Shown here one piece after another: positions 42,351 through 44,967 of a stretch of 64,000 nt of DNA. The stretch spans positions 144,501 to 208,500 of the forward strand of contig NZ_QLOE01000001.1 in NCBI RefSeq assembly GCF_003264935.1, in the 5' to 3' direction. Both the position numbers and the translations under genes were made by a program. The number at the start of each line of letters is the position of its first letter. Position 1 is the first letter of the stretch. The DNA comes from Methanothermobacter tenebrarum. Its GTDB lineage: Archaea; Methanobacteriota; Methanobacteria; Methanobacteriales; DSM-23052. The notes under the pieces were generated by a model. It did not search any database, was not told the DNA's origin, and saw nothing but the letters and a program-made list of their open reading frames with translations.

Positions 42351-42899
42351 ATGAAGACTCTTATTACAAATTTAAGGGGCCGATGCCTCTTCGATGTTAC
42401 AATGAGAAATAAAATAGATGGTTTAATACTAGTTCAGAGCGAAAAATTTGATGACCTATCCCTTGAAAAATTTGTTAAAGGAGGTCTTATAAAAATAGAA
42501 ACAGAAGATCCTCTTAAAGCATGTTATAAGATCTCTGAGGTTATAAGAGGGGCTAAAAAGCATGGTAAAGTTTATGTCGCTTATAATGGTGATGATATTG
42601 GAGGTCTTCTAGCATTTGCAGCCTTCAAGGAGGGTGTTGACGCTATATTCACTTGTTTCAGGGAAACCTCAGTCAGGTTACCCATTCCTAGGCTTGATAT
42701 TTCAGATTCAAAACTTAAAATTTTAAAGGTTTTAGAAGATGAAAATTTAACCGCTATAGAAATCGCGAAAAAGGTTGGAATATCAAGAGCCATGGCCTAT
42801 AAGCATTTAAGCGACCTTATAGAGATGGGACTTGTGAAGCAGTCTCATCTCCTGGAAAAGTATTCTATTACAAAGGCAGGAAAATTCGTTACAATATAG
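42351..42899 (+). CDS. Winged-helix regulator with CARF/Rossmann-like N-terminal domain
   Basis: 182 residues. The N-terminal 115 show alternating strands and helices with KVYVAYNGDDIGGLLAFAAF followed by an IFTC strand and RLPIPRLDISDSKLKILKVL, the order seen in CARF domains of Csa3-type regulators that sense cyclic oligonucleotides. The C-terminal 65 are a winged helix (LTAIEIAKKVGISRAMAYKH, then LIEMGLVKQ). GGTGATATT precedes ATG. Divergent from the glutamate synthase operon; no CRISPR or cas gene is in the window, so its ligand may be something else. Confidence 0.6.
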   Translation: MKTLITNLRGRCLFDVTMRNKIDGLILVQSEKFDDLSLEKFVKGGLIKIETEDPLKACYKISEVIRGAKKHGKVYVAYNGDDIGGLLAFAAFKEGVDAIFTCFRETSVRLPIPRLDISDSKLKILKVLEDENLTAIEIAKKVGISRAMAYKHLSDLIEMGLVKQSHLLEKYSITKAGKFVTI

Positions 42900-43625: not shown

Positions 43626-44753
43626 TTAAAGCTCCTTTAACATTAAATCGATAATCCTCGCCCTCTTATCCCCACCTTCAATCCCATGAACCATAAAATC
43701 CCTGTTAACCCTCCTTCTCATCTCCCCAAATATCATCTTATAAGCCTCACACTGATGATCCACACCATCAAGCTCCATATTACCATCATCATCAATACTT
43801 ATCGCATTATATGGACACCCACCAAGGCAAAAACGATAATAATCACATGAAGAACACTCCCTATCAACAAGCCTCCTCCAACCCCTAAGCCTCTTCAAAG
43901 CCTCGGATTCCTCAAGATCATCCATACTAGGATTATCCTCAACATTACCCATAACATAATCCTTCATCTCCACAAAACGATAACATGGATATATATCCCC
44001 ATGCGGATCCACAGCAAAAGTATTACCTACACAATCTGCAAGAGTGCATACAACACCACGCCTCATAAACATGCTCTTGGCAAAATGATCAAGATTCTTT
44101 ATCTCAATCTCACCAAAATGGGACAAATACTCATCAAGAAGATAAACTAAAAGCTCACCATACTCCCTCGCACTTATACTCCACTCCTTCGGATCTTCAC
44201 TTTTAAGAGACGGTAAAGCCGGATGCAATTTAAGATTCAAACCATTCTCCAAGAAAAACTTGAAAACCTCCTCCTTAAAATTAATAGAATATGAAGTGAA
44301 AGTACTAATAAAACTCACACTTAAACCATGCCTTCTAGCAACCTTGTATCCCCGCATCGTCTTCTTAAAATAACCCACACCCCTCTGAAAATCGTTTATC
44401 TCCTCCGGGCCATCAAGACTGGAACCAATAGGGATGTTATATTTGGCGAAAAGTTCAGCCAATCTGTCATCCATCAACCAAAGATTTGTCTGTATAGCGA
44501 ACGCAGGATTCAACATAGCCAATTCACTGCTCAATAAAGCTAAAGCCTCCTTATAAAACTCATAACCCGCCAGTAAAGGTTCGCCCCCATGGAATGTGAA
44601 AGTCACCGGCTCCATTCTGAAACCCTTAAGCCAAGAGACAATCTTTTTTATAATATCTATACTCATTATAGTAGAGTCCCGCTCAACACCCCAACAATAA
44701 CTACAATTTGAAGGACAATTCATAGTAGGAACTATCATCACATGGAAGGCCAA
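43626..44753 (-). CDS. Radical SAM/SPASM peptide-modifying enzyme (TTG start)
   Basis: 375 residues. Radical SAM core with C13-x3-C17-x2-C20 (CPSNCSYC), FTFHGGEPLLAG, then a SPASM domain from about 240 with CYRF, CSSCDYYRFCLGGCP and a final Cys, like anaerobic sulfatase maturases and RiPP enzymes. From memory it fits the methanogen family TIGR04083 (Mhun_1560 type). TTG 44753 follows GGGGGGATAAC. The Cys-rich peptide gene ends 12 nt upstream; that peptide is the likely substrate. Product and function are not known to me. Confidence 0.8.
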   Translation of the reverse strand: MAFHVMIVPTMNCPSNCSYCWGVERDSTIMSIDIIKKIVSWLKGFRMEPVTFTFHGGEPLLAGYEFYKEALALLSSELAMLNPAFAIQTNLWLMDDRLAELFAKYNIPIGSSLDGPEEINDFQRGVGYFKKTMRGYKVARRHGLSVSFISTFTSYSINFKEEVFKFFLENGLNLKLHPALPSLKSEDPKEWSISAREYGELLVYLLDEYLSHFGEIEIKNLDHFAKSMFMRRGVVCTLADCVGNTFAVDPHGDIYPCYRFVEMKDYVMGNVEDNPSMDDLEESEALKRLRGWRRLVDRECSSCDYYRFCLGGCPYNAISIDDDGNMELDGVDHQCEAYKMIFGEMRRRVNRDFMVHGIEGGDKRARIIDLMLKEL

Positions 44754-44765
44754 AAGTTATCCCCC

Positions 44766-44915
44766 CTATCCCTTCTGGAAAACATATCCACACTTTTCAC
44801 ACACAATCTCCCTAAGACTAGCAAAGGCCTTATGCTCATCTATTATCTTCCTTTTAACTATCTTATCCTTGCAACCACAACGTGGACATTCCTTAAACAA
44901 ATCTTCAAATTTCAT
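44766..44915 (-). CDS. Cys-rich 49-residue peptide, probable substrate of the adjacent radical SAM enzyme
   Basis: 49 residues starting MKFEDLFKECPRCGCKDKIV. Cys at 10, 13, 15, 39 and 42; HKAFASLREIVCEKCGYVF fills the second half. It resembles the methanogen Cys-rich peptide family TIGR04165 that accompanies such SPASM enzymes (from memory). The paired CxxC motifs could also be a plain zinc ribbon. GGAGGCGCG lies 12 nt before the ATG, and a palindromic TATA region is at 44952-44967. First gene of a two-gene operon. Confidence 0.7.
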   Translation of the reverse strand: MKFEDLFKECPRCGCKDKIVKRKIIDEHKAFASLREIVCEKCGYVFQKG

Positions 44916-44951
44916 CCCTTACACGCGCCTCCTAAAATCTTTCTCCTTTTA

Positions 44952-44967
44952 CCTATAAGTTTATAGG
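44952..44967 (-). promoter_or_regulatory. Palindrome over the promoter of the peptide/radical SAM operon
   Basis: CCTATAAGTTTATAGG is a 7-bp inverted repeat with a 2-nt spacer and contains the likely TATA box on the minus strand (CCTATAAACTTATAGG), about 45 nt before ATG 44915. A palindrome on the TATA element is a natural repressor site. The role is inferred from position. Confidence 0.4.

Follow-up and report, generated by a model that had tools for sequence, protein, structure and literature searches.

We analyzed a window of 64,000 nucleotides from the archaeon Methanothermobacter tenebrarum. On its minus strand, a 49-codon, cysteine-rich gene ends 12 nt upstream of a gene for a radical SAM/SPASM enzyme, exactly as an earlier reading of the sequence alone had described. 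That reading had also assigned such pairs to the families TIGR04165 (peptide) and TIGR04083 (enzyme). The HMM search it proposed proved the assignment correct, with both proteins scoring above the curated NCBIfam whole-protein cut-offs. The features of the locus are as follows.

44952..44967, no strand assigned: inverted repeat CCTATAA-GT-TTATAGG (CCTATAAGTTTATAGG), seen in the sequence and overlapping a TATA-like sequence
44766..44915, minus strand: TIGR04165 small protein, 49 aa, ATG start, 78.8 bits against a cut-off of 60, with C10, C13, C15, C39, and C42
44877..44888, minus strand: first knuckle of the small protein, CPxCG (C10, C13), invariant in 22 sequences
44790..44801, minus strand: second knuckle, CxxCG (C39, C42), invariant in 22 sequences
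43626..44753, minus strand: TIGR04083 radical SAM/SPASM enzyme, 375 aa, TTG start, 565.9 bits against a cut-off of 300, with Pfam PF04055 and PF13186
44694..44717, minus strand: CX3CX2C motif of the radical SAM [4Fe-4S] cluster, its cysteines C13, C17, and C20 unchanged across the 23 enzymes of the alignment
43749..44048, minus strand: SPASM region with C236, C241, C257, C300, C303, C309, C313, and C335, from the alignment of 23 enzymes and matches to SPASM profiles

The surroundings of the pair were of little help. Neither the neighbors in the window (hisG and a Nudix gene) nor those in M. marburgensis (hisG, nitroreductase, Nudix, and sensor kinase genes) gave a hint of function, and a literature search for the two family accessions found nothing. 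The palindrome had been read as a promoter element. It does exist, but the 5' region of the orthologue in G003, a genome of the same genus, does not contain it, nor do those of the other relatives compared, so we rejected the idea of a conserved palindromic promoter. A tiny cysteine-containing open reading frame, MWIVEAYCDLCRAKRTLEVEGKTPPYPIGDRIEECPCGGKYVVEEIIEV, ends immediately 5' of the peptide gene in Methanothermobacter (loci L062 and L234) and may be cotranscribed with the pair as a third gene. Elsewhere in the window, positions 42351-42899 (plus strand) encode a winged-helix protein with a subthreshold likeness to the CARF regulator Csa3 (46.2 bits against a cut-off of 60.2).

The enzyme has the full complement of cluster motifs that had been ascribed to it. 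All three cysteines of the CX3CX2C motif and all eight of the SPASM region are invariant across the 23 aligned enzymes, and the SPASM profiles TIGR04085 and PF13186 both exceed their cut-offs in the window protein. By analogy with anaerobic sulfatase maturase (anSME), the eight SPASM-region cysteines are predicted to be ligands of two auxiliary clusters. The AlphaFold model (pLDDT 89.7) has as its nearest solved fold the anSME structure 4K39 (TM 0.81), in which a peptide is bound, and anSME is also the closest solved structure by sequence profile (E 4e-46; 4K36-4K39). The window enzyme is nevertheless not a member of the anaerobic sulfatase maturase family TIGR03942, to which it scores 184.1 bits, under the cut-off of 349.45. 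It scores 109.8 bits to the related SPASM enzyme PapB. The enzymes of genus g13 (L067 and L041) lack the C-terminal tail that ends in a conserved xxIMxLMxK motif elsewhere, and the small proteins of this genus, which are encoded apart from the enzyme, are without the HxAHA stretch. The tail possibly serves in docking.

For the small protein, the sequence-only reading had pointed to five cysteines. All five are present in the window protein, but C15 is not generally conserved and is replaced by serine in most relatives in the alignment of 22, while the other four are invariant. The only residues common to all 22 sequences are M1, K2, C10, P11, C13, G14, D17, K18, R22, C39, C42, and G43. The four invariant cysteines form what looks, from sequence, like a pair of zinc-ribbon knuckles. 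This agrees with the fallback of the earlier reading, which had allowed for a zinc ribbon that might dock the enzyme. The AlphaFold model, a low-confidence one (pLDDT 67.5), comes closest among solved structures to the TFIIB zinc ribbon 1PFT (probability 0.94, E 0.15). No Pfam family, zinc-ribbon families included, scored over its cut-off for the small protein. A longer TIGR04165-like paralogue with the pattern CPECG...CxxCGYVFE, a linker ~10 residues longer, and no adjacent enzyme occurs in genera g19, g16, and others (L062:11872-12051, plus strand, with equivalents in G145-G151, G139-G142, and G005). In Methanothermobacter, it lies ~5 kb from the gene pair.

The two genes are close companions across the phylum of the window organism. 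Above the respective cut-offs, the peptide was found in 136 and the enzyme in 132 of the 152 genomes, which is far from a chance association. Among 91 near-complete genomes, all 91 had some peptide match and 90 had some enzyme match (E <= 0.001). In G001, presumably Methanothermus fervidus, the matches to both families reach only 5e-5; these weaker matches are not true members, and both genes are absent. A survey of adjacency had been suggested for the Methanobacteriales. It showed the genes side by side in most genera and apart in the g13 and g14 genomes with listed coordinates, as in G128, where the peptide lies at 1,203,295 and the enzyme at 714,235. As the genes travel together even when unlinked, we argue for a working partnership within the class.

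Outside the phylum, the picture is different. Genomes of other methanogens were reached through Methanosarcina and Methanocaldococcus loci, and a chimeric query joining the M. jannaschii TyrRS to the Methanosarcina PylRS served solely to reach named genomes of this kind. TIGR04083 was over its cut-off in 132 of 394 Halobacteriota genomes and TIGR04165 in none of them, and the enzyme was over its cut-off in none of the 36 genomes of the Methanococci phylum, to which Methanocaldococcus belongs. The peptide therefore fits poorly as the substrate of the enzyme, because the entire Halobacteriota range of the enzyme would be left without one; a RiPP precursor is expected to accompany its maturase across the range, and here it does not. 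For the same reason, the small protein is not needed for the reaction in general. In one Methanosarcina-type McrA genome, the sole TIGR04083 match (G483:C47:64335-65450) was a divergent one of 210 bits containing an in-frame TGA, possibly representing loss of the enzyme or else another SPASM family member.

What accompanies the enzyme in the Halobacteriota is mcrA. The gene (TIGR03256) was found in 128 of the 132 enzyme carriers versus 98 of the 262 other genomes (Fisher p = 5e-35, a value that ignores shared ancestry). In at least 18 of the 29 genomes compared on one contig, the enzyme gene follows mcrA at a distance of 144-500 nt in the same orientation. In Methanolobus profundi, it is directly 3' of mcrA, and an ANME-2c contig (L284) has the same order of mcrA and then the enzyme. 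This linkage was not seen in Methanobacteria or Methanosarcina, and mcrA of the window organism is on another contig.

MCR is the source of nearly all biological methane and the starting point of anaerobic methane oxidation. For the thioglycine, methylarginine, methylcysteine, and methylglutamine of McrA, enzymes have been assigned, and reviews state that none is known for its didehydroaspartate (dD) (PMC7581889, PMC8070964). No maker of dD was named in the searched papers that mention it, although an independent assignment may exist beyond them. Both MCR isoforms of M. marburgensis, I and II, are reported to contain dD, as are the enzymes of M. barkeri and M. acetivorans (PMC9081873), and the MCR of ANME-2c and ANME-2d carries it as well (PMC12413448). 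It is missing from the MCR of M. wolfeii, Methanotorris formicicus, Methanothermococcus thermolithotrophicus, Methanopyrus kandleri, Methermicoccus shengliensis, ANME-1, and Ethanoperedens (PMC9081873).

If TIGR04083 made dD, it should be present where dD is known, and this is what we observed. Among the named control genomes, M. acetivorans alone was over the TIGR04083 cut-off, and the gene is intact in G144, which we take to be M. marburgensis. All three genomes encoding an ANME-2d-like McrA (91-93% identity to 9QQT) have the enzyme. For ANME-2c and M. barkeri, presence was judged by match counts to a combined McrA and enzyme query, the second match being read directly only in the ANME-2c-type genome G614. 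By this count, two matches were obtained in all five genomes encoding an ANME-2c-like McrA (92-96% identity to 9QM5), as well as in G682, whose McrA matches that of M. barkeri (1E6Y) at 100% identity, so that the enzyme is very probably present in M. barkeri. The converse expectation, absence or breakage where dD is absent, agrees with the Methanococci phylum (0 of 36), to which the dD-free MCRs of Methanotorris and Methanothermococcus belong, and with M. wolfeii, described below. It also agrees with G486 (best solved match 3SQG) and the other sampled genomes encoding ANME-1-type McrA, in which no enzyme was found. With the Methermicoccus McrA (7NKG) as the query, no genome was above 76% identity. 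The ANME-1-like McrA of G486 (L290) carries GYDLQDQANNPN in place of GYDLQDQCG and is missing the cysteine two residues after the aspartate.

M. wolfeii provides what appears to be a natural mutant. Genome G151 (genus g19) encodes an McrA I identical to PDB 5A8K at 547 of 547 residues and an McrA II identical to 5A8W at 548 of 548, which identifies it as M. wolfeii. The 5A8K enzyme is listed as that of M. wolfeii, with no dD and with every other M. marburgensis modification kept (PMC9081873, Table 1). In G151, the enzyme gene has a TAC-to-TAG change at an invariant tyrosine three codons past the last SPASM cysteine (DHQCEA*RMIF), and the stop removes ~38 C-terminal residues, including most of a helix modeled at 335-356. 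Judging from the gene, the M. wolfeii enzyme has probably lost its activity through this one nonsense mutation, although the sequenced strain may differ from the crystallized one. It is important to point out that this comparison was made after the hypothesis had arisen from the mcrA linkage and the distribution, and that it could have failed. A further disruption occurs in G149 (L234), presumably M. thermautotrophicus Delta-H, where a one-base deletion frameshifts the TIGR04083 gene (enzyme region G149:C1:71711-72825), which is intact in the close relative G150. The deletion may be an old sequencing error; if it is not, the MCR of Delta-H is predicted to be without dD. The small protein is intact in both genomes despite the broken enzyme gene, and because it survives there, an independent metal-binding role for it has to be entertained.

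Taken together, family membership, distribution, linkage to mcrA, and the disrupted M. wolfeii gene, all of them direct observations, make TIGR04083 a strong candidate for the missing dD synthase of MCR. We place at roughly 0.73 the probability that TIGR04083 is the McrA dD synthase and that TIGR04165 is a zinc-ribbon accessory in Methanobacteria and not its substrate. The reaction, the substrate, and the role of the small protein are what we infer. The enzyme would dehydrogenate the aspartate of the McrA motif G-Y-D-L-Q-D-Q-C-G, five residues past the thioglycine (Asp450 of M. marburgensis, Asp470 of M. acetivorans). Reductive cleavage of SAM would give a 5'-deoxyadenosyl radical, which would take a hydrogen from the aspartate beta-carbon; the remaining electron would pass to an auxiliary [4Fe-4S] cluster, and loss of the alpha-proton would yield didehydroaspartate.

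An accessory role is the most economical reading of the small protein, because it tracks the enzyme inside Methanobacteria. It would be a zinc-ribbon protein that evolved in this class, perhaps presenting nascent McrA or stabilizing the enzyme, a suggestion much less certain than the assignment of the enzyme. The fuller version, in which a dD synthase acts on a large metabolic enzyme, not on a RiPP precursor, and has in Methanobacteria an obligate TIGR04165 partner that delivers or presents McrA, is put forward only tentatively. Given the close tracking within Methanobacteria, the small protein could also be a second substrate of the enzyme.

The sequence-only reading had favored a cysteine crosslink or thioether made in the peptide, the unit being an uncharacterized RiPP-like or cofactor-making system. 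In its general form, with a crosslink, thioether, or formyl group in the TIGR04165 peptide leading to a RiPP-like product or a peptide-derived cofactor, we regard this reading as improbable. The genes are indeed adjacent in the window and most relatives, their co-occurrence within the class is near perfect and extends to joint absence in G001, and the enzyme comes from a superfamily of peptide maturases, with NCBIfam names that suggest peptide modification. However, the Halobacteriota carriers of the enzyme are all without the peptide, only four cysteines are invariant and these are spaced as two zinc knuckles, and the peptide is intact where the enzyme is broken. In addition, the genes are unlinked in g13 and g14, and the pair is nearly universal in the order's complete genomes, which is not what accessory natural products show. 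The distribution and gene neighborhood of the enzyme point instead to McrA as the substrate. A RiPP or crosslinked cysteine peptide was rejected as the main reading because the peptide is missing from Halobacteriota and only the zinc knuckles are invariant.

Granting that the enzyme acts on MCR, it might make or assist another modification, such as an oxidation not yet seen, and match dD by coincidence. Linkage to mcr does not by itself name a residue, and modification sets have been determined for only some ten MCRs. Yet dD is the sole modification of M. marburgensis MCR that M. wolfeii, with its broken gene, does not share (PMC9081873, Table 1). The 6-hydroxytryptophan of MCR is found in Methanotorris, a member of the phylum without the gene, and the arginine, cysteine, glutamine, and glycine modifications already have assigned enzymes. 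We consider a coincidence of this kind quite unlikely. An explanation of the small protein alone, and thus one compatible with the enzyme being a dD synthase, is that it is an independent zinc- or iron-binding protein, acting in nucleic acid binding or as a rubredoxin-like electron carrier, that is merely cotranscribed with the enzyme. Its model resembles the TFIIB zinc ribbon, its knuckles are like those of rubredoxin in swapped order, it stays intact when the enzyme is lost, and longer paralogues exist without an adjacent enzyme. Its tight co-occurrence with the enzyme even where the two are unlinked (g13 and g14), together with their joint absence in G001, speaks against independence, which we hold to be conceivable but somewhat doubtful.

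If TIGR04083 is the dD synthase, one gene can be named for dD, with the natural mutant M. wolfeii explained, and a part is supplied for producing fully modified MCR in heterologous hosts. A family name that points to a possibly nonexistent RiPP would be corrected, and the dD question would become testable by one gene deletion in M. acetivorans.

Among known systems, anSME is the closest to the proposed enzyme. It combines a radical SAM core with two auxiliary clusters, as the window enzyme appears to, and it oxidizes the beta-carbon of a residue, cysteine or serine, within a protein substrate, which is much like the reaction proposed here. The products differ, as anSME makes formylglycine and TIGR04083 would make a C=C bond in aspartate. 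The ranthipeptide maturase PapB modifies the same position, the aspartate beta-carbon, with a loss of 2 Da (PMC9413430), but it does so by attaching a cysteine sulfur within a leader-bearing peptide, whereas the reaction proposed for TIGR04083 has an alkene product and no cysteine partner. The dedicated single-residue enzymes of McrA, which are often encoded near mcr (PMC7058361, PMC11796369), are Mmp10/MamA, MgmA, McmA, and YcaO-TfuA. They make methylarginine, methylglutamine, methylcysteine, and thioglycine, respectively; none is a SPASM dehydrogenase, and none explains dD. For the small protein, the TFIIB-type zinc ribbon is the nearest likeness, its model aligning to 1PFT with an rmsd of 1.1 over 43 columns, although it differs in being a stand-alone protein of 49 aa with a low-confidence model. 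Finally, both window proteins belong to the NCBIfam TIGR04083/TIGR04165 pair by the curated cut-offs, but the name "peptide-modifying" given there to the enzyme is at odds with our survey, in which the Halobacteriota, a large share of the taxonomic range of the enzyme, lack the peptide and often have mcrA as the neighbor of the enzyme.
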